Source of the DNA: Nocardioides marmoriginsengisoli
GTDB lineage: Bacteria > Actinomycetota > Actinomycetes > Propionibacteriales > Nocardioidaceae
NCBI RefSeq assembly: GCF_003725695.1
Contig: NZ_RJSE01000008.1
Span: 207,801 to 271,800, forward strand
Reading direction: 5' to 3'
DNA: 64,000 nt
Positions 43,501-55,910 of the stretch are shown piece after piece. Under the pieces are notes generated by a model that did not search any database, was not told where the DNA came from, and saw only the letters and a program-made list of their open reading frames with translations. The number at the start of each line of letters is the position of its first letter. Position 1 is the stretch's first letter. The position numbers and the translations under genes were made by a program.

Positions 43501-44331
43501 GTGGGGATGCAAACTGAGGTGATCCAACGCGTTCGCGGCCTGGTGCCGGCGGCCGCGCTGCCCGGAATCGTGCGCCGCCGGATCGACCGGCTCTGGGCGA
43601 ACGATGCCTACCGCGAGCTGCAGGAAGCGCAGATGCGGCACGTGGTCGAGTTCACCGACCGGGCCGAGGAGATCCCTGAGCTGGCCCGCGGGCACGCTGA
43701 GCAGATGATGCTCCGCGGCTACCTGCGCTGGCACCCGCGGCGGATCACCCGGCAGCCGGTCCGCGACGTCGAGTGGCTGACCACCCGCCGTGACCGGAGC
43801 CGCCCGGTGGTGATGAGCTTCATGCACCACCACCGGTACGACGGCATGTTCGGCTCGCTGGCCCGCGCCGGAGCGCCGTCGAACATCCTGACCCTGCCGG
43901 ACGCGCTGGAGCCGGACGCGCCGGTGCAGATCAAGCAGCACATCCGCGTCGTACGCCGCGGCGGGACGCTGGTGCCGACGACTGGCGGTACCGGCGTGAT
44001 CGTGGACGCGATGCTGCCGGGCTCGATCTGGTCGATCGCCTCCGACGTACCGGGCCGGACGCCGGTGGACTTCCTGGGACGCCGGGTGCTCGGCTCGTTC
44101 GGCGCGGCCCGGATCGCCACCATCACCGACAGCCCGGTGGTGCTGGTGACCTCGCACCGCGACGGCGCCGGCGGCAGCTACCTGCAGGTCCACGCGCCCC
44201 TGGAGCCGAAGGACTTCGCCGACCCGGCGGACCTGCTGAGCGAGATGCTGCGCCGCCACGGACAGGCGATCCTGGAGTGGCCGGAGGCGCTGGATGCGCC
44301 GTTGAGCCGGTGGGGTCGCGCGGACCTCTGA
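43501..44331 (+). CDS. LpxL/HtrB-like lysophospholipid acyltransferase family protein, paralogue 1
   Basis: 276 residues, not closely recognised. A His-x4-acid motif (His109 to Asp114 in MHHHRYDGMF) marks the catalytic pair of LPLAT acyltransferases. ASDVPGRTPVDFLGRRVLGSFG and ARIATITDSPVVLV occupy the places of the acyl-donor and acceptor motifs. No clear membrane span is present. Two paralogues lie at 44374 and 46816 with the same EFTDRAxEIPxLAR, LRWHPR and EWLTTxRD blocks. It probably acylates a lipid, glycolipid or lipoamino acid. GTG 43501 is supported by the -10 position; an ATG follows two codons later. Confidence 0.65.
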   Translation: MGMQTEVIQRVRGLVPAAALPGIVRRRIDRLWANDAYRELQEAQMRHVVEFTDRAEEIPELARGHAEQMMLRGYLRWHPRRITRQPVRDVEWLTTRRDRSRPVVMSFMHHHRYDGMFGSLARAGAPSNILTLPDALEPDAPVQIKQHIRVVRRGGTLVPTTGGTGVIVDAMLPGSIWSIASDVPGRTPVDFLGRRVLGSFGAARIATITDSPVVLVTSHRDGAGGSYLQVHAPLEPKDFADPADLLSEMLRRHGQAILEWPEALDAPLSRWGRADL

Positions 44332-44361
44332 GTTCGGCCTCGCGGTACCCCGCGGTCTTGA

Positions 44362-44367
44362 TAATGT
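44362..44367 (+). promoter_or_regulatory. Putative -10 element (TAATGT) of the second acyltransferase paralogue
   Basis: TAATGT plus 6 bases reaches the GTG at 44374. TTGATA directly before it is too close to be its -35. Confidence 0.5.
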
Positions 44368-44373
44368 CCAGCA

Positions 44374-45225
44374 GTGCCTGCCTCAGCGAAGACATCCCTG
44401 GTCAGCGCCGCGCACGAACTTCGTCGGCTGATTCCGCCGAGCGTCGCGCGGGCCTACGTGAACCGCCGGGTCGACCAGCTGATGGAGATCGACGCCTACC
44501 GCGAGCTCCAGGAGGCGCAGATGCGCCACCTCCTCGAGTTCACCGACCGGGCGCCGGAGATCCCGGTGCTGGCGCGCCAGTTCGCGATCGAGACGATGCT
44601 CAAGACGCACCTGCGCTGGCACCCGCGGCTGGTCACCAGCGAGCCGGTCCGCGGGATCGAGTGGCTGACCACGCAGCGAGACCCGAGCCGCTCGGTGGTC
44701 CTGAACTTCATGCACCACTACCGCTACGAAGGCATGTTCAAGGCGCTCAAGCGGCGGGGCGTCGAGCTCGACATCATCGCGCACGCCGAGCTGATGGGGA
44801 AGGACACCCCGAACCCGCTCAAGCACCACATGCGGCTGGTGGCCAGCGGCGGCCGGATGACTCCTGCCGGCGGCGGGATGGACTCCTACATCGCGATGGC
44901 CCGGCCCGGCATCACCATGGTGGTCGCCTCGGACCTCCCCGGCCACACGCCGGTCACCTTCCTCGGCCGTCGGGTGATGGGCTCGTTCGGCTCGGCGCGG
45001 ATCGCGACCGAGACCAACAGCCAGGTGGTGCTGATCACCGCGCACAAGGACGACGACGAGAGCACGTACCTCCAGCTGCACCCGCCGATCGAGCCGAGCG
45101 ACTTCGCCGACGCGCACGCGCTGCTGGCGGAGATCCTGAACCGGCACGGCGAGGCGGTGCTGGCCTGGCCCGAGGTGGTCGACATGCCGTTGTCGCGGTT
45201 CGGCAGGATCGAGGAACAGGCCTAG
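44374..45225 (+). CDS. LpxL/HtrB-like acyltransferase family protein, paralogue 2
   Basis: 283 residues and clearly homologous to paralogue 1 over the full length. The catalytic pair is His114-x4-Glu119 (FMHHYRYEGMF), with glutamate in place of aspartate, as in LpxL. ASDLPGHTPVTFLGRRVMG and ARIATETNSQVVLI follow in the same order. It starts 42 bases after paralogue 1, with its own leaderless-type promoter. The 3' end overlaps the convergent tetR stop by four bases. Sequence divergence from paralogue 1 in the middle (residues 130-175) suggests a different acceptor. Confidence 0.65.
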   Translation: MPASAKTSLVSAAHELRRLIPPSVARAYVNRRVDQLMEIDAYRELQEAQMRHLLEFTDRAPEIPVLARQFAIETMLKTHLRWHPRLVTSEPVRGIEWLTTQRDPSRSVVLNFMHHYRYEGMFKALKRRGVELDIIAHAELMGKDTPNPLKHHMRLVASGGRMTPAGGGMDSYIAMARPGITMVVASDLPGHTPVTFLGRRVMGSFGSARIATETNSQVVLITAHKDDDESTYLQLHPPIEPSDFADAHALLAEILNRHGEAVLAWPEVVDMPLSRFGRIEEQA

Positions 45226-45857
45226 CGCCCGACCGCTGCCCGCGCTGCCTCGTCGAGGTCGCCGAAGACGGTGCTGAACAACCGGATGCACCGGTCGGTC
45301 ATCGCGGCGGGGGAGACCTCCGGGTGGTCCAGCCACCAGGTCACCAGGGAGCGGAAGACGCTCTCCCAGACGGCATGCGTCGCCGAGGTGTCGCCGGCGT
45401 CGGTGTTGCCGGCCAGCCGCATCAGCTCGCCGACGCCGTCGGCGCCGAGGGTGAAGAGCCGGCGCTCGTAGTCGAGCAGCGCCTCGTGGCTGGCGCCGTC
45501 GCTCGGGGCGGTCGGGTCGAAGACCAGCCTCCACATCCACGGTTGCGGTGCCAGCGCCTGGAACATCCCGTCGAGGGTGACCACGGCCCGCGCCAGCCCG
45601 ACGGTGTCGGTCCGCGACGAACGCTCGAACTCGGCCCAGAGGGTCTCCGCGGCGTGCTGCACGCAGACCGCGTGCAGGCCCTCCTTGGAGCCGAAGTAGT
45701 TGTAGATCAGCGGCTTGGAGATGCCGGCGGCCTCGGCGATGTCGGCGACGGAGGTGGCGGCGTACCCGGCCTCGCCGAACGCGCGGCAGGCGACGTCGAG
45801 GATCTGCGCCTCGCGGTCGGCCCGGGCGACGCCCTTGGTGCCGGCGTTGGAAGTCAT
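45222..45857 (-). CDS. TetR-family regulator of the hydroxylase gene
   Basis: 211 residues. The helix-turn-helix is clear (AFGEAGYAATSVADIAEAAGISKPLIYNYFGSKEGL, quoted here as GYAATSVADIA and KPLIYNYFGSKEGL), and the C-terminal domain is helical with many tryptophans. Its ATG lies six bases after TAGGCT. It is divergent from the sterol-desaturase-like gene; a 10-bp palindrome between them is the likely operator. TetR proteins near lipid genes often sense acyl-CoA, so an acyl ligand is plausible. Confidence 0.86.
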   Translation of the reverse strand: MTSNAGTKGVARADREAQILDVACRAFGEAGYAATSVADIAEAAGISKPLIYNYFGSKEGLHAVCVQHAAETLWAEFERSSRTDTVGLARAVVTLDGMFQALAPQPWMWRLVFDPTAPSDGASHEALLDYERRLFTLGADGVGELMRLAGNTDAGDTSATHAVWESVFRSLVTWWLDHPEVSPAAMTDRCIRLFSTVFGDLDEAARAAVGR

Positions 45858-45863
45858 GGCGAA

Positions 45864-45869
45864 AGCCTA
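45864..45869 (-). promoter_or_regulatory. Putative -10 element (TAGGCT) of the leaderless tetR gene
   Basis: TAGGCT on the minus strand, 6 bases before the ATG at 45857, the same arrangement as at rmlB. Confidence 0.6.
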
Positions 45870-45890
45870 GCCGAGAATATGAACCTGTGG

Positions 45891-45906
45891 TAACTTACTC
45901 GCGAGT
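45891..45906 (+). promoter_or_regulatory. Operator and -10 region of the hydroxylase gene
   Basis: The perfect palindrome ACTCGCGAGT (45897-45906) follows directly on a candidate -10 TAACTT (45891-45896). A dimer bound here would cover the transcription start. The gene has a good GGAGG at 45916-45920. Confidence 0.65.
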
Positions 45907-45927
45907 CATATCCCTGGAGGATGTCTG

Positions 45928-46806
45928 ATGAACGACCTGCACGAGCTTCTCGACCCGATGAAGAACCCGGTGACCTACGCGGTCCCGTTCTTCCTGCTCA
46001 CGATCCTCATCGAGCTCGCCGCGCTCAAGTGGCTCGACCACGACGACGCGGCGACGGTGACCGGCTACAACGGCAAGGACGCCCGCACCAGCATGGGGAT
46101 GGGCGCGATCTCGCTGGTCTTCTCGCTCGCCCTCAAGGTGGGCTCGTTCCTGGTCTACATCGTGGTCTTCGAGCAGCTGGCGCCGTGGACGCTGCCCACC
46201 GATACCTGGTGGTACTGGGTGCTGCTCATCGCCGGGGTCGACCTGGCGTTCTACGCCTCGCACCGGTTCGTGCACCGGGTCAACATCGGCTGGGCCGCCC
46301 ACCAGGCGCACCACTCCAGCGAGTACATGAACTTCGCGACCGCGCTGCGGCAGAAGTGGAACCCGTGGTTCGAGTTCGTCTTCTGGCTGCCGCTGCCGTT
46401 CCTCGGGTTCGCGCCGTGGACGATCTACGTCGCGTTCGGCTTCAACCTGATCTACCAGTTCTTCACCCACACCGAGCTGATCGGCAAGCTCTGGCGGCCG
46501 ATCGAGTTCGTGATGAACACGCCGTCCCACCACCGGGTGCACCACGGCTCGGACCCGGAGTACCTGGACAAGAACTACGCCGGCATCCTGATCATCTGGG
46601 ACCGGATGTTCGGCACCTTCGTCGCCGAGAAGCAGCGGCCGACGTACGGGCTCACGAAGCCGGTGAACACCCACAACATGATCAAGCTCCAGTACGGCGA
46701 CTACGCCCAGATCGTCCGCAACGTGCGCGCCTCGCGGTCGTTCCGGGACCGGCTCGGCTACCTCTTCGGGCCGCCGGGCTGGGAGCCGTCCGCGAAGTCT
46801 CGCTAG
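45928..46806 (+). CDS. Sterol desaturase / fatty acid hydroxylase family membrane enzyme
   Basis: 292 residues with about four hydrophobic segments. The di-iron histidine boxes are complete: SHRFVHR, AAHQAHHSSE and PSHHRVHHGS. Members hydroxylate or desaturate fatty acids, sterols or carotenoids at the membrane face. No sterol genes are present here, so a fatty acyl substrate is more likely. ATG 45928 follows GGAGG by seven bases. Flanked by TetR and three LPLAT-like genes, it probably modifies the acyl chains they handle; this is inference. Its TAG stop is part of the next gene's -10. Confidence 0.85.
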   Translation: MNDLHELLDPMKNPVTYAVPFFLLTILIELAALKWLDHDDAATVTGYNGKDARTSMGMGAISLVFSLALKVGSFLVYIVVFEQLAPWTLPTDTWWYWVLLIAGVDLAFYASHRFVHRVNIGWAAHQAHHSSEYMNFATALRQKWNPWFEFVFWLPLPFLGFAPWTIYVAFGFNLIYQFFTHTELIGKLWRPIEFVMNTPSHHRVHHGSDPEYLDKNYAGILIIWDRMFGTFVAEKQRPTYGLTKPVNTHNMIKLQYGDYAQIVRNVRASRSFRDRLGYLFGPPGWEPSAKSR

Positions 46807-46809
46807 CCT
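46804..46809 (+). promoter_or_regulatory. Putative -10 element (TAGCCT) of the third acyltransferase paralogue, overlapping the hydroxylase stop
   Basis: The TAG stop at 46804-46806 starts TAGCCT, followed by 6 bases and the ATG at 46816. Confidence 0.55.
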
Positions 46810-46815
46810 TCGGGC

Positions 46816-47655
46816 ATGGGATTCATCGGTGACCAGGTCCAGCGCGTCCGGAGCCTCATTCCGTACGGCGCCCTCCCCGCACTAGCGCGTCGCCGGGTCG
46901 ACGGCCTCTGGCAGATCGAGGAGTACCGGTCCGCGCAGGAGGCCGAGATGCGCTACCTGCTCGAGCACACCGAGCGCGCCGCCGAGATCCCGGAGATCGC
47001 CCGCGGGTACACCGAGTTCGCGCTGCTGCGCGGCTACCGGCGGTGGCACCCGGGCAAGCTGTCCCGCCAGCCGGTCACCGGCATCGAGTGGCTGACCACG
47101 AAGCGCGACCCCGAGCGCGGCGTGCTGCTCAGCTTCGTCCACCATGCCCAGTACGAGGGCCTGTTCCCCTCGCTCGCCCGGCAGGGCGCGGCCGTGCACG
47201 CGGTCGTCGCGCCGGAAGCCTTCGACCCGGCCTCGCCGGTCCAGCTCCGCCAGCACTTCAAGGTGGCCGGGATGATGCCGAACACCACCCTGGTGCCGGC
47301 GACGATCGGTACCGCCGGGATGGTCGAGCTGCTGGAGGGCGGCGCGATCCTGGGCATCGCCTCGGACGTGGCCGGCCGGACCCCGGTGCAGTTCCTGGGC
47401 CGCGAGCTCCGCGGTGCCTTCGGTGCCGCCCGGATGGCGACCCAGACGAACTCGCCGGTGGTGCTGGTCACCTCGCACCAGGGCGCCGACGGCAACCCTT
47501 CGCTCCAGGTGCACGAGCCGCTGGAGCCCGGCGACTTCGCGGACCCCGGCGCGTTGCTGGCCGAGATCATGCGTCGCCACGAGCCCGCGGTGCTGGCCTG
47601 GCCGGAGGCGTTCGACAGTCCCTACACCCGGTTGGGCGTTCCGGCCGGGGAGTGA
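46816..47655 (+). CDS. LpxL/HtrB-like acyltransferase family protein, paralogue 3
   Basis: 279 residues, homologous to the genes at 43501 and 44374. The catalytic pair is His109-x4-Glu114 (FVHHAQYEGLF). ASDVAGRTPVQFLGREL, ARMATQTNSPVVLVTS and EPGDFADPGALLAEIMRRHEPAVLAWPEAFD align block by block. The N-terminus VRSLIPYGALPALARRRVDGLW matches paralogue 1 better than paralogue 2. It begins 9 bases after the hydroxylase stop, so it may be cotranscribed as well as driven by its own promoter. Confidence 0.65.
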   Translation: MGFIGDQVQRVRSLIPYGALPALARRRVDGLWQIEEYRSAQEAEMRYLLEHTERAAEIPEIARGYTEFALLRGYRRWHPGKLSRQPVTGIEWLTTKRDPERGVLLSFVHHAQYEGLFPSLARQGAAVHAVVAPEAFDPASPVQLRQHFKVAGMMPNTTLVPATIGTAGMVELLEGGAILGIASDVAGRTPVQFLGRELRGAFGAARMATQTNSPVVLVTSHQGADGNPSLQVHEPLEPGDFADPGALLAEIMRRHEPAVLAWPEAFDSPYTRLGVPAGE

Positions 47656-47746
47656 CGCCGGTCAGCCGTTTACTAGCGAGACTCCTCAGTCTTGCAGTAC
47701 GTTCTGGCCGTTCGGGGGACTCTTTCGTGGGGAAAGGTAGTTCTCA

Positions 47747-48370
47747 ATGTCCCGTCTCGTTCGCCTGCTCGTGATCGGCCTGGTCGCCGCCGTCGGATTC
47801 GTCGTACCCGCCATCGCGGTCGCGGCACCCGCGCCGCCGCAGATCACGACAGCCTCGCTGCCCTCGGTCATCCAGGGCACCAAGTACCCGACGACCACGC
47901 TCAAGGTCACCGGTGGCACCTGGCCGTACCGGTGGTCGGTTGTGGCCGGCGCCCTGCCCTACGGCCTGAAGCTCAGCGCCGGCGGCCAGCTCAGCGGCGC
48001 CACCGGCTACCCGTACGGCACCCCGATCCCGATCACCGTCCAGGTCAAGGACGCCAAGGGCGTCACCGCGGTCCGCGACTACCAGCTCGTGGTGACGCCG
48101 TTCACGGTCATCACCCCGTCGCTGAAGAACGCGAGGAAGGGCGCGTTCTACTCCGCGACCGTGAAGACCAACGGCGGCTGCATCAACGGCAAGCGGCTGC
48201 AGTGGGGGGTCTACAACGGCACCCTCCCCGCCGGCCTGAAGATGTCCACGAACGGCGTCATCTCCGGCATCCCGAAGGCCGCCGGTGCCTCGACGTTCGT
48301 GGCGTACGCCGAGTGCCCGGTCTTCAACAACGGTGCTGCCGGCAAGACGTTCACCCTGACGGTGAACTGA
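47747..48370 (+). CDS. Secreted protein with two putative Ig-like (He_PIG) domains
   Basis: 207 residues. A signal peptide (VRLLVIGLVAAVGFVVPAIAVAA) precedes two cadherin-like Ig repeats, each with a GTLPxGLKxSxxGxISG-type motif: GALPYGLKLSAGGQLSG and GTLPAGLKMSTNGVISG. Two cysteines in the second repeat (GGCING and AECPVF) could form a disulfide. Such domains mediate surface adhesion or carbohydrate binding. It carries no cell-wall anchor, so it is probably released. Weak AAAGG precedes the ATG. The 90 bases upstream hold no clear promoter. Confidence 0.78.
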   Translation: MSRLVRLLVIGLVAAVGFVVPAIAVAAPAPPQITTASLPSVIQGTKYPTTTLKVTGGTWPYRWSVVAGALPYGLKLSAGGQLSGATGYPYGTPIPITVQVKDAKGVTAVRDYQLVVTPFTVITPSLKNARKGAFYSATVKTNGGCINGKRLQWGVYNGTLPAGLKMSTNGVISGIPKAAGASTFVAYAECPVFNNGAAGKTFTLTVN

Positions 48371-48374
48371 GGTC

Positions 48375-50942
48375 TCAGCCGTCGAGCCGACGGAACGCCT
48401 GTGTCACCAGGACCAGCTCACCGAGCTCGTCGGTGACGTCGACGTCGACGAGAGCCTCGATGATCCAGTCGTGGTGACCGTCGGGGTCGGCGAGGGTCTG
48501 GGTGACCGGCCAGAACCGGCCTTCGCGGGAGATCCGCAGCAGGTCGGGGCCGCGCGCGTCACCGTCCAGCAGCACGTCGTCGTGCTCGGCGAAGTAGTCC
48601 TCGATCGCTGCGTCCCAGGCGGACCGGGTCATCACCACCTCACCGGGTGGGTCGGTCCGGTCCGCCGCCGCGCGTTCGAGGGCCATCAGCCCGTCGAGGT
48701 CGTCGCGGGCGACCAGCTGCACCCGGCGGAACATCGCGTTGCGGACCATCACCGTGAACGGCCGCTCCTGCTTCGAGATCGGCCGCGGGTTGACCGGCGT
48801 ACGGTGCTCGGCCAGCTCCAGGGCGTGCTGGTGCACGGCATCGGGATCGGTCAGCGACTCCCACTCGTCGAGCAGTGACGAGTCGGTCTGCCGGACGGTC
48901 TCGCCCAGCCACTCGGCGAGCTCGTCGAGCTCGGGGGTGCGGTGCTGGTCCGGGACCGTCTGCCGCAGGGTGCGGTAGGCGTCGGTGAGGTAGCGCAGCA
49001 CCAGGCCCTCGGAGCGGGCCAGCTGGTAGCGGGAGACGAAGTCGGTGAAGCTCATGCCCTGCTCGTACATCTCCCGGACGATCGACTTCGGTTCCAGTGC
49101 GTCCTCGGGCAGCCACGGGTGCCGCTCCCGGTAGATCGCGTAGGTCACCTCCAGCAGCTCGCGCAGCGGCATCGGCCAGGTGATCTCGTCGAGCAGCGCC
49201 ATCCGCTCGTCGTACTCGATCCCGTCGGCCTTCATCTCGTTCACCGCGATGCCGCGGGCGACGTACTGCTGCTGGGCCAGGATCTGCCGCGGCCCCTCGA
49301 GCACCGACTCCACCACCGAGAGCAGGTCCAGGGTGTGGTCCTCGGACTCCGGGTCGAGGACGTCGAACGCGGCGAGCGCGAAGTGCGCCAGCGGCTGGTT
49401 CAGCGCGAAGTCGGCCGGGAGGTCGACCGTCAGCACGTACCGCCGGCCGAACTCGTCGAGGTCGTCGAGCCGGGTGAGCACGCCCGAGTGCACCAGGCTG
49501 CGGGCCAGCCGGAGCGCGCGCCGGGCCAGCCGTCGCTGGTTGCCGACCGGCTCGTGGTTGTCGGTCAGCAGGCGGCGCAGCACCGGGAACGCGTCCTCCT
49601 CGCGGGAGACGACGTTGATCAGCATCGCGTTGTCGACCTTCATCCGCGAGGTCAGCTGCTCGGGCGGGCGCGCGACCAGCTTCTCGAAGGTCTCCTCCGA
49701 CCAGACCACCTCGCCGTCGGGCGGCTTCTTGCGCCGGACGCTCTTCTGCTTCTTCGGGTCGTCGGCGAACTTGGCCAGCGCCTTGGCGTTGTCGATCACG
49801 TGCTCGGGAGCCTGGACGACGACGAACCCGGCCGTGTCGAACCCGGCCCGGCCCGCGCGTCCGGCGATCTGCAGGAACTCCCGCGAGCGCAGGATCCGCT
49901 GCCGGGTCCCGTCGAACTTGGCCAGGCCGGTGAAGAGCACCGTCCGGATCGGCACGTTGATGCCGACGCCGAGGGTGTCGGTCCCGCAGATCACGACCAG
50001 CAGCCCGGACTGGGCGAGCTGCTCGACGAGGCGGCGGTAGCGCGGCAGCATCCCGGCGTGGTGGACGCCGATGCCGCGGCGTACCAGCTTCTGCAGGGTC
50101 TTCCCGAAGCCGGCGCCGAAGCGGAACCCGACCAGGCGCTCGGCGATCGCGTCGCGCGCCTCCCGGGTCGGCGCGATGCTCTTCGACGCCAGCAACCCGG
50201 TGGCGTGCTCGACGGCCGCCGCCTGGGTGAAGTGCACGACGTACACCGGTGCCTGGTGGGTCTCGACGAGCTCGGTGAGGGTGTCGGCGAGGTGCGTCAT
50301 CGCCCAGGAGAACGACAGCGGCACCGGTCGTTCGGCGTCGTCCACGATCGCCGTCTCCCGGCCGTTGCGGCGGGTCAGGTCGGCGGCCAGCTCGCTGACG
50401 TCGCCGAGCGTCGCCGACATCAGCACGAACTGGGTCCGGGTCAGCTCGAGCAGCGGGACCTGCCAGGCCCAGCCGCGGTCGGGCTCGGCGTAGAAGTGGA
50501 ACTCGTCCATCACCACCAGGCCGACATCGGCGCCCGGTCCCTCGCGCAGCGCGATGTTCGCCAGCACCTCGGCCGTGCAGCAGATGATCGGGGCGTCCGG
50601 GTTCACCGACGCATCGCCGGTCAGCATCCCGACGTTGGTCGCGCCGAAGACCTCGCAGAGGGCGAAGAACTTCTCGCTCACCAGCGCCTTGATCGGCGCC
50701 GTGTAGAAGCTGACCCGGTCGCCGGCGAGGGCAGCCGCGTGCGCCGCCACCGCCACCAGCGACTTCCCGGAACCGGTCGGGGTGGCCAGGACGACGTTGC
50801 TGCCGCCGAGCAGCTCGATGATCGCCTCGTCCTGGTGCGGGTAGAGGCTCAGCCCCTGCGTGCCGGTCCAGGTCGCCAGCGCCTCGTAGACGGCATCCGG
50901 GTCGTCGGTCCGGGGAACCCAGTCCGCTCCGTCTGCCTGCAC
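48375..50942 (-). CDS. Ski2-like DExH-box helicase with DUF3516-type C-terminus
   Basis: 855 residues. Helicase motifs are in order: ATPTGSGKS (I), MDEFHFYAE (II, DExH type), LMSATLGD (III), TDTLGVGINVP (V) and QIAGRAGRAG (VI). The second half (LEPKSIVREMYEQGMSFTDF and onward) matches the actinobacterial DUF3516 extension. RNA unwinding or processing is likely, by analogy with Ski2/Mtr4. GTG 50942 is preferred: TACTGT lies 6 bases upstream, and a longer frame would run through the 9-bp inverted repeat. Confidence 0.87.
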   Translation of the reverse strand: MQADGADWVPRTDDPDAVYEALATWTGTQGLSLYPHQDEAIIELLGGSNVVLATPTGSGKSLVAVAAHAAALAGDRVSFYTAPIKALVSEKFFALCEVFGATNVGMLTGDASVNPDAPIICCTAEVLANIALREGPGADVGLVVMDEFHFYAEPDRGWAWQVPLLELTRTQFVLMSATLGDVSELAADLTRRNGRETAIVDDAERPVPLSFSWAMTHLADTLTELVETHQAPVYVVHFTQAAAVEHATGLLASKSIAPTREARDAIAERLVGFRFGAGFGKTLQKLVRRGIGVHHAGMLPRYRRLVEQLAQSGLLVVICGTDTLGVGINVPIRTVLFTGLAKFDGTRQRILRSREFLQIAGRAGRAGFDTAGFVVVQAPEHVIDNAKALAKFADDPKKQKSVRRKKPPDGEVVWSEETFEKLVARPPEQLTSRMKVDNAMLINVVSREEDAFPVLRRLLTDNHEPVGNQRRLARRALRLARSLVHSGVLTRLDDLDEFGRRYVLTVDLPADFALNQPLAHFALAAFDVLDPESEDHTLDLLSVVESVLEGPRQILAQQQYVARGIAVNEMKADGIEYDERMALLDEITWPMPLRELLEVTYAIYRERHPWLPEDALEPKSIVREMYEQGMSFTDFVSRYQLARSEGLVLRYLTDAYRTLRQTVPDQHRTPELDELAEWLGETVRQTDSSLLDEWESLTDPDAVHQHALELAEHRTPVNPRPISKQERPFTVMVRNAMFRRVQLVARDDLDGLMALERAAADRTDPPGEVVMTRSAWDAAIEDYFAEHDDVLLDGDARGPDLLRISREGRFWPVTQTLADPDGHHDWIIEALVDVDVTDELGELVLVTQAFRRLDG

Positions 50943-50948
50943 GGTGCG

Positions 50949-50954
50949 ACAGTA
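50949..50954 (-). promoter_or_regulatory. Putative -10 element (TACTGT) of the leaderless helicase gene
   Basis: TACTGT on the minus strand is followed by 6 bases and the GTG at 50942. Confidence 0.5.
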
Positions 50955-50964
50955 CCGGTCCGCC

Positions 50965-50997
50965 GGGGGCGTCCTGTGAGCGCTTGTTGACGCCCCC
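50965..50997. repeat. Perfect 9-bp inverted repeat in the divergent helicase/ACT-GNAT promoter region
   Basis: GGGGGCGTC (50965-50973) and GACGCCCCC (50989-50997) flank 15 bases. With genes leaving on both sides it cannot be a terminator, so an operator or a 5'-leader hairpin is more likely. Confidence 0.6.
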
Positions 50998-51046
50998 GTA
51001 ACCAAGGCGCAGCCGACGCGCAACAACGCGACGGCACGCTGGGGTC

Positions 51047-54496: not shown

Positions 54497-54889
54497 TCAG
54501 AGACTCGCGATCAGTGCCTCGACCCGACCGCGGATCTCGTCCCGGATCGCCCGTACGGCGTCCAGGTCCTGTCCGGCTGGGTCGTCCAGCTTCCAGTCCT
54601 CGTAGCGCTTGCCCGGGAAGAACGGGCAGGCGTCGCCGCAGCCCATCGTGATCACCACGTCGGAGTCCTGCACGGACTCGGTGGTCAGCACCTTCGGCTG
54701 CGCGCCGGCGAGGTCGATGCCGACCTCGGCCATCGCCGCGACCGCCATCGGGTTGATCGCGTCGGCCGGTGCGGATCCGGCCGAGAGCACCTCGATCCGG
54801 TCTCCGGCCAGGTGCTGCAGGAAGCCCGCCGCCATCTGGGAGCGGCCGGCGTTGTGGACGCAGACGAAGAGAACGGTGGGGCGGGTCAT
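54497..54889 (-). CDS. arsC: Arsenate reductase, low-molecular-weight phosphatase type
   Basis: 130 residues; reduces arsenate to arsenite. The phosphatase loop VCVHNAGRSQMAAG carries nucleophile Cys10 and Arg16 (CX5R); the resolving cysteines are Cys84 and Cys88 in TMGCGDACPFFPG. This three-cysteine arrangement fits the thioredoxin- or mycoredoxin-coupled type. It is last in the operon arsR, aquaglyceroporin, arsC and overlaps the porin gene by four bases (ATGA). Confidence 0.92.
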   Translation of the reverse strand: MTRPTVLFVCVHNAGRSQMAAGFLQHLAGDRIEVLSAGSAPADAINPMAVAAMAEVGIDLAGAQPKVLTTESVQDSDVVITMGCGDACPFFPGKRYEDWKLDDPAGQDLDAVRAIRDEIRGRVEALIASL

Positions 54890-55557
54890 CGGGACTCCTG
54901 GGCGGTGAGGGGGAACAGGTAGCGGACCAGGCCGAGCGCGAGCGCCCCGCCGACGAGCTGCATCAGCACGAACATCGCCACCGAGGACGGCGCGATCCCG
55001 GCGAAGGTGTCGCTGAACATCCGGGCGATCGTGACGGCCGGGTTGGCGAAGCTGGTCGAGGACGTGAACCAGTACGCCGCGGTGATGTAGCCCCCGACGG
55101 CGTACGCGATCGTCGCGGTCCGACCGGACCGTACGGCGCCGAAGATCACCACGACCAGGCCGAAGGTCGCCACGACCTCGCCGAGCCAGAGGTTGCTGCC
55201 GGTGCGCTCGTGACCGGACCAGCTCACGGCGTCGAGGTCGAACATCAGGTTCGCGACCACGGCGCCAGCAATGCCGCCGGCGACCTGAGCTGCGGCGAGC
55301 ACGGCCGCCTCCGACCAGCGGATCAGTCCGAGCGCCGCCTCGACCGCGCTGACCACCGGGTTGAAGGCAGCCGAGACGGGTTGGAAGGTGAGGATCAGGG
55401 CGATCAGCGCAGCTCCGGTGATCAGGCTGTTCTCCAGCAGCTGGAGGCCGACGTCGTCGGGGGAGAGCCGCGCGGCCGCGATCCCGGAGCCGACCACGGC
55501 CATCACCAGGAACGCCGTACCGGTCAGCTCGGCGACGACCTTGCGCCGAAGCGTCAC
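54886..55557 (-). CDS. Aquaglyceroporin-like channel of the arsenic operon (AqpS-like)
   Basis: 223 residues with six membrane helices and the two pore half-helices of the MIP family: the first NPA is altered to NPV (FNPVVSAVEA), and the second is intact (FANPAVTIAR). It takes the place of an Acr3 or ArsB pump. In the known rhizobial AqpS system arsenite made by ArsC leaves the cell passively through such a channel; the same logic is inferred here. GTG 55557 overlaps the arsR stop (GTGA). Confidence 0.85.
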   Translation of the reverse strand: MTLRRKVVAELTGTAFLVMAVVGSGIAAARLSPDDVGLQLLENSLITGAALIALILTFQPVSAAFNPVVSAVEAALGLIRWSEAAVLAAAQVAGGIAGAVVANLMFDLDAVSWSGHERTGSNLWLGEVVATFGLVVVIFGAVRSGRTATIAYAVGGYITAAYWFTSSTSFANPAVTIARMFSDTFAGIAPSSVAMFVLMQLVGGALALGLVRYLFPLTAQESR

Positions 55558-55910
55558 AGCCCCCCGCCGATCAACGCACCCAGGTCGCTGAGGGCTTCGC
55601 GGCGCACTCGGTAGTAGACCCAGACGCCGCGCTTGGAGCGGTCCAGCAGGCCGGACTCGTGCAGCACCTTGAGGTGGTGGCTGATCGTCGGCTGGGAGAG
55701 GTCGAAGGCGTCGTTCAGGTCGCAGACGCAGGCCTCGCCGCCGTCGTGGGCGGCGACCAGGGAGAGCAGCCGCAGCCGCACCGGGTCGGCGATCGCCTTG
55801 AGCAAGGGTGCGATCCGCTCGGCAGTCTCCTCGGAGAGCGGAGCGGCGACCAGGGGCGAGCAGCACGCGACCGTCTCGACGGGGGTGAGCGTCAGATGGG
55901 ACTTCGACAT
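55554..55910 (-). CDS. arsR: ArsR arsenite-responsive repressor
   Basis: 118 residues. The DNA-binding helix is LSQPTISHHLKVLHESGLL. Four cysteines are present: the N-terminal pair Cys16-Cys17 (ETVACCSPL) and Cys61/Cys63 (EACVCDL). An N-terminal CC pair working with one central Cys is the arsenite site described for Corynebacterium ArsR, so this type is likely. It heads the minus-strand operon and is divergent from arsI. Binding of As(III) should release both promoters. Confidence 0.93.
   Translation of the reverse strand: MSKSHLTLTPVETVACCSPLVAAPLSEETAERIAPLLKAIADPVRLRLLSLVAAHDGGEACVCDLNDAFDLSQPTISHHLKVLHESGLLDRSKRGVWVYYRVRREALSDLGALIGGGL

Follow-up and report, generated by a model that had tools for sequence, protein, structure and literature searches.

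VexE, PatA and the LpxL/LpxM enzymes are the closest described counterparts of the genes considered here. According to PMC9597891, VexE is the C-6 β-hydroxyacyltransferase of the Vi antigen lipid anchor, which acylates UDP-GlcNAc at C-6 with an acyl chain on acyl carrier protein (acyl-ACP) as donor; residues 1-385 form a TPR domain, and the structure given there is a predicted model. PatA, the phosphatidylinositol mannoside acyltransferase of actinobacteria, transfers an acyl chain to a hydroxyl of a sugar, and LpxL and LpxM acylate a lipid A precursor. High-GC Gram-positives are not known to have lipid A. In a stretch of 64,000 nucleotides from Nocardioides marmoriginsengisoli (contig NZ_RJSE01000008.1, positions 207,801 to 271,800; the whole stretch is called the window), three LpxL-like acyltransferases (ATs) accompany a TetR-family regulator gene and a membrane hydroxylase gene. 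An earlier note had taken these for one system placing hydroxylated acyl chains on a surface lipid. Our analysis indicates that AT1-AT3 are members of a Nocardioidaceae family of acyltransferases with the predicted fold of PatA and LpxM, and that the best explanation of their role, with a probability of about one in two, is acylation of a sugar of an exported surface glycan. The locus is better read as glycan-linked LPLAT enzymes of an accessory family, which may work like VexE and PatA, beside an independent TetR-hydroxylase unit. Surface glycan acylation would be a testable answer to what LpxL-like enzymes do where PatA was not found and lipid A is unexpected. No paper on the AT family in Nocardioides was found in the open-licence literature. 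The five genes previously placed here all have open reading frames; the three ATs are as follows.

43501..44331, plus strand: AT1, LPLAT-type acyltransferase of 276 amino acids (PF03279 20.0 bits; in clade 99/94 with all ATs linked to FLIP1, a putative partner flippase)
44374..45225, plus strand: AT2, LPLAT-type acyltransferase of 283 amino acids (PF03279 25.9 bits; in the clade of AT1; AlphaFold (AF2) model LPLAT)
46816..47655, plus strand: AT3, LPLAT-type acyltransferase of 279 amino acids (PF03279 26.7 bits; in a separate clade, 100/99)

Identity to AT1 is 53% for AT2 and 54% for AT3, and 42 bp separate AT1 from AT2. Sequence blocks described in the earlier note as common to all three are kept strictly in AT1 and AT2, but AT3 departs from them (EHTERA, RRWHPG, ASDVAG). 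The PF03279 gathering cut-off of 22.3 bits is exceeded by AT2 and AT3, with AT1 slightly below it. A weak PF03279 match and the fold of the AT2 model are points in common with LpxL/LpxM; a point of difference is that 19 of 25 AT family members match PF03279 at a threshold of 0.01. Although the AT1-AT3 proteins match PF03279 directly at 4e-4 to 4e-6, a six-frame PF03279 search of the whole genome at 0.001 gave no match, AT1-AT3 included, so a screen of this kind passes over weak members, and absences from such screens, that of PatA among them, are only as good as the screen. Searching the window genome with AT2 (E 0.001) returned AT1-AT3 and no further member. The AF2 model of AT2, built from 23 family members, has a mean predicted local distance difference test (pLDDT) score of 92.5. 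Foldseek ranked PatA and LpxM at the top for this model, and VIA-align aligned it with PatA at Z 20.4 (root-mean-square deviation 3.1, 230 residues, 14% identity) and with LpxM at Z 19.3, PlsC following at Z 9.4. The LPLAT fold that had been proposed is thus borne out by structure prediction for AT2, the one of the three ATs on which this result rests.

PatA as the closest solved fold, and a fold shared with PlsC, would also suit a different role, in which the ATs are acyltransferases of membrane phospholipids or phosphoglycolipids, either remodelling lysophospholipids or acting like PatA on a phosphatidylinositol-based glycolipid, with the nearness to glycan genes in relatives a matter of gene traffic only. 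AT1-AT3 score only 14.7-17.5 bits against a cut-off of 209 for the PatA family NF005919, however, and overall we consider such a role rather unlikely. From VexE, going by its published description, the ATs differ in being actinobacterial, in having relatives that adjoin flippase-like genes and in their size: VexE carries a large N-terminal TPR domain, whereas no TPR domain precedes the LPLAT domain in the ATs, which are 276-283 amino acids long, the AT2 model beginning with a short helical N-terminus.

All 33 aligned domains have the same residue at nine positions, numbered here as in AT2: both His of HH, Arg81, Ala185, Asp187 (the Asp of the ASD motif), Gly206, Ala211, Pro266 and Pro272. The HX4D/E motif is present in AT1, AT2 and AT3, and its acid in 28 of 39 AT family domains, with near-identical pairs (genomes G004/G016) counted apart, as also in the 30 loci below, and fused proteins counted as two domains; in the other 11 this position is Ser (4), Tyr (2), Pro (2), Ala, Asn or Leu. 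On the alignments, the HX4 acid is not a feature of the AT family and appears dispensable within it. This weakens the argument of the earlier note that a varying His-x4-Asp/Glu pair points to different acceptors. PMC9597891 describes VexE as having Tyr at this position, where Phe is tolerated, and as working with the pair His466 and Asp532, the latter equivalent to PatA Glu200. The parallel with the residue pattern of the ATs is suggestive: going by that description, both would combine an LPLAT domain acting in a surface-polysaccharide locus, an HX4 acid that is not required, and a His with a later Asp as the pair. The HX4D/E acid, by which LPLAT enzymes are often recognised, seems not to be obligatory within a natural family, as the case of VexE would also suggest. 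In the ATs, the base would be the invariant first His of HH, aided by the ASD Asp, as in the pairs His466-Asp532 of VexE and His126-Glu200 of PatA. Against this pairing, two profile alignments place Asp187 on PatA D202 (our own count) and not on E200, and an alignment with LpxM places it on the Asp of the PDHT of LpxM; as these alignments disagree, the catalytic dyad and the equivalence of Asp187 to PatA Glu200 are tentative.

Loss of the HX4 acid from one of the two tandem AT copies in G004 and G016, together with a window genome in which FLIP1 was not found, could also mean that at least two of the three window ATs are decaying or structural, inactive copies. We think this improbable: the reading frame is open in all three, each retains HX4D/E, HH and the ASD Asp, and their GC content at third codon positions (93-95%) lies inside the 89-99% of scored neighbour genes.

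A glycan role is suggested by the genomic company of AT relatives. Genes were called by a codon-usage script in 30 AT loci besides the window and compared with 20 glycan-locus queries; a match was not counted if its query came from the locus being scored. The control set of 24 loci consisted of 19 random stretches from ten AT-bearing genomes (one of 20 random regions was excluded at the outset for overlapping an AT locus) and, from AT-less genomes, five hydroxylase loci; the hydroxylase locus of G019 (L080) was in neither set. Glycan matches numbered 59 among 503 genes in the AT loci versus 2 among 411 genes in the control loci. At least one match was present in 24 of 30 AT loci versus 2 of 24 controls, and at least two in 15 of 30 versus 0 of 24. 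This enrichment supports the acylation of a surface molecule, as had been claimed, and argues against a role in phospholipid metabolism, which is favoured by the six of 30 AT loci that gave no glycan match (L016, L017, L019, L021, L056, L063).

In ten of the 30 loci (L020, L022, L052, L053, L054, L058, L109, L110, L111, L113), the common order is AT, a membrane protein of 724-821 amino acids, a flippase-like protein and a PF04464-type glycerophosphotransferase, with PF04464 confirmed by Pfam for L020 only. The AT adjoins FLIP1 in six loci (L013, L014, L015, L018, L050, L051), and L051 has, 5-7 kb downstream of its AT, genes for an ACP (PF00550) and for an AMP-binding enzyme (PF00501). ATs stand amid Wzz, sugar-transferase, glycosyltransferase, nucleotidyltransferase or epimerase genes in L057, L061 and L114. 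Two AT domains are fused in one protein of 579-581 amino acids at L059:7798-9537 and L060:8084-9829, the HX4 acid being present in 0 of these 4 domains; L059 also encodes GDP-mannose dehydratase-like proteins and a Wzz protein (Pfam), and L060 homologues of the dehydratase-like proteins. The 724-821-amino-acid-type membrane protein of L020 (L020:6687-9092) has a DUF2206 match in Pfam. At L050:7531-9369 (G319), an AT domain (residues 330-604) is joined to an N-terminal half in a protein of 612 amino acids that has no Pfam match as a whole at 0.01; the N-terminal half may resemble a sulfotransferase.

Several observations weigh against inferring glycan acylation from this company. The glycan queries themselves came from AT loci, so the contrast with the controls is exaggerated, and some AT loci are near-copies (G004/G016). 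Five of the 24 positive loci (L013, L014, L015, L018, L051) match FLIP1 alone; without it, 19 of 30 remain. Both AT3-type loci (L019, L021) are among the six without a glycan match, and no glycan gene stands beside the window ATs. The grounds for calling FLIP1 a flippase are weak, with PF01943 found in 2 of 6 members (best 3e-10), no match in a sequence search of the PDB and a low-confidence structure model (pLDDT 43.6); FLIP2, the flippase-like protein of L020, has no Pfam match. In favour of a link, FLIP1 exceeds 700 bits in 5 of 39 genomes, all five with an AT (Fisher 1e-4), but this figure is to be read in the light of a 700-bit line set after the scores were seen, a profile containing four of the five sequences, and kinship ignored. 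G015 has a FLIP1-like gene (457 bits) but no AT. In the window genome, where the FLIP1 search found nothing, PF01943 has two matches elsewhere, one of them over the cut-off.

The AT family is accessory, occurring in 8 of the 39 genomes, the window genome included, and in 17 of 391 genomes drawn from the order, all 17 from the bacterial family of the window. A scan of named genomes, with patterns that favour close relatives, gave 18 AT loci, 10 in Nocardioides records and 8 in Marmoricola records, and a draw from the phylum gave only weak matches, in 20 of 395 genomes (that of the window excluded), the best at 91 bits. To judge by these sequence searches, clear members of the family are restricted to Nocardioides/Marmoricola and their bacterial family. 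PatA was found in 149 of the 391 genomes of the order, and 242 had no match; none of the matches in this draw came from a genome of the same genus, 11 such genomes being among those listed without one, and a PatA search of the window genome also gave no match. A substitute for PatA, as the phospholipid role would have it, is conceivable on these absences. As a general substitute, however, the ATs are rejected on the same counts: with an AT in just 17 of the 391 genomes, at most 17 of the 242 without a PatA match could be served in this way. AT occurrence is patchy rather than general, and G315 has both PatA and an AT.

In the glycan acylation that we favour, an AT would take an acyl chain from acyl-ACP or acyl-coenzyme A and place it on a sugar hydroxyl. 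The transfer would occur on the cytoplasmic side while a lipid-linked surface glycan is being made, and a MOP-type flippase would then export this glycan; AT1-AT3 would do what related ATs in glycan loci do. AT pairs, tandem or fused, occur as AT1-AT2 in the window and in G004, G016, G319, G320 and G350. It is a speculative and in our view unlikely extension that such pairs put two chains on one sugar, and that the monoderm Nocardioidaceae use their own LPLAT family to make acylated, possibly di-acylated, sugar anchors for surface glycans. If true, di-acylated anchors would be a diderm-style glycolipid anchor that evolved separately in Gram-positives.

A TetR gene and a hydroxylase gene do lie between the ATs, as the earlier note had it, and the region between these two holds a conserved element.

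45222..45857, minus strand: TetR-family regulator (PF00440, TetR_N, 2e-18), divergent from the hydroxylase
45877..45912, no strand: conserved element of the TetR/hydroxylase intergenic region (block kept in 10 of 10 genomes; contains the palindrome at 45895-45908)
45928..46806, plus strand: membrane FA_hydroxylase (PF04116, 1.6e-25; essential residues of alkylglycerol monooxygenase present)

The TetR-hydroxylase pair stands at the same chromosomal place in nine relatives, four of them without an AT. G018 and G007 have groEL, TetR and hydroxylase, then ACT-GNAT and guaB after no more than one intervening gene, and lack an AT; G008, also AT-less, has the pair in this interval amid other genes; and in G001 (75% complete), where no AT was found, the contig ends before groEL and the guaB side is the same. 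G019 has FLIP1 alone between groEL and TetR and its AT elsewhere in the genome. One or two ATs and FLIP1 share the groEL-guaB interval with the pair in G021, G016, G004 and G012, and in the window AT1-AT2 occupy the groEL-side place. G006 and G013 have an AT without this hydroxylase. The TetR-hydroxylase pair appears to be a separately inherited unit at the groEL-guaB place.

This synteny leads us to reject the idea of one system, in which the hydroxylase would make hydroxy-acyl chains, or hydroxylate the acylated product, and the three ATs, with TetR in control, would attach these chains to a surface lipid. Its attractions are the interval shared by ATs and pair in the window and the four genomes just named, the position of AT3 with its start 9 bp behind the hydroxylase stop, and co-occurrence over all 39 genomes (6 with both; Fisher P 0.01). 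Within the genus (24 genomes), however, co-occurrence is not significant (P 0.21), and both tests ignore kinship. The pair and the same promoter element also occur without an AT in G018, G007, G008 and G001, 26 of the 30 other AT loci lack such a hydroxylase in the stretch examined, and the AT3 relatives in G021 and G019 do not adjoin the hydroxylase, all of which makes a joint system very improbable. The expectation that the genes would be found together outside this strain thus holds for AT1/AT2-like genes in G021, G016, G004 and G012, but AT3 stands behind the hydroxylase in the window only, among the ten genomes compared.

In the AT tree, rooted at midpoint, one clade (99/94) joins AT1 and AT2 to all FLIP1-linked ATs and to stand-alone genes from G004 and G016; another (100/99) joins AT3 to the genes of G021 and G019 that are located elsewhere. 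AT3, being in a separate clade, therefore did not arise by recent local copying of AT1 or AT2, and it reached the hydroxylase separately. One recent local triplication is excluded by the tree for AT3; AT1 and AT2, within their clade, may be such copies. Judging from the 9-bp gap, AT3 is probably co-transcribed with the hydroxylase in this strain.

The palindrome TTACTCGCGAGTCA (45895-45908), proposed earlier as an operator, does occur, with 12 of its 14 positions symmetric and no second copy in the genome, but it is not conserved: a 12-of-14 palindrome occurs in 2 of 10 orthologous intergenic regions and in 12% of shuffled intergenics. As a conserved operator it was replaced by a longer element, ATATGAAC-N2-GTGGTAACTTAC-(5-6 variable)-AGTCATATC, which is conserved in 10 of 10 genomes, four AT-less ones included, and within whose variable stretch the palindrome partly lies. 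A scan for sigma-70 promoters and terminators found nothing.

The hydroxylase scores 44 bits against a cut-off of 475 for OlsE, the ornithine lipid hydroxylase (NF052566). Alkylglycerol monooxygenase cleaves ether lipids in a tetrahydrobiopterin-dependent reaction. PMC7911779 gives 15 essential residues for this enzyme, namely nine His, Q162, D233, N235, Y236, W243 and D244. A script located 14 of the 15 in the hydroxylase, exactly spaced within two blocks. Reading by hand gave the ninth His (human H201) as residue 181, spaced as the first block requires, and showed one additional residue between the blocks. The bacterial hydroxylase thus shares all 15, a resemblance by residue spacing that other hydroxylases may share. 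Two further PF04116 genes lie elsewhere in the window genome, and the paralogue at L064 in the same genome lacks the Gln and the Trp.

Between the hydroxylase and ACT-GNAT/guaB, 7 of 9 relatives have at most one gene, versus three in the window, where positions 46816-51026 hold AT3, then a He_PIG-domain protein at 47747-48370 and a helicase-like gene at 48375-51026. This segment looks like an insertion in the N. marmoriginsengisoli strain. Farther on, at 54497-55910 on the minus strand, are putative genes for an arsenate reductase, a channel and an ArsR-type regulator.

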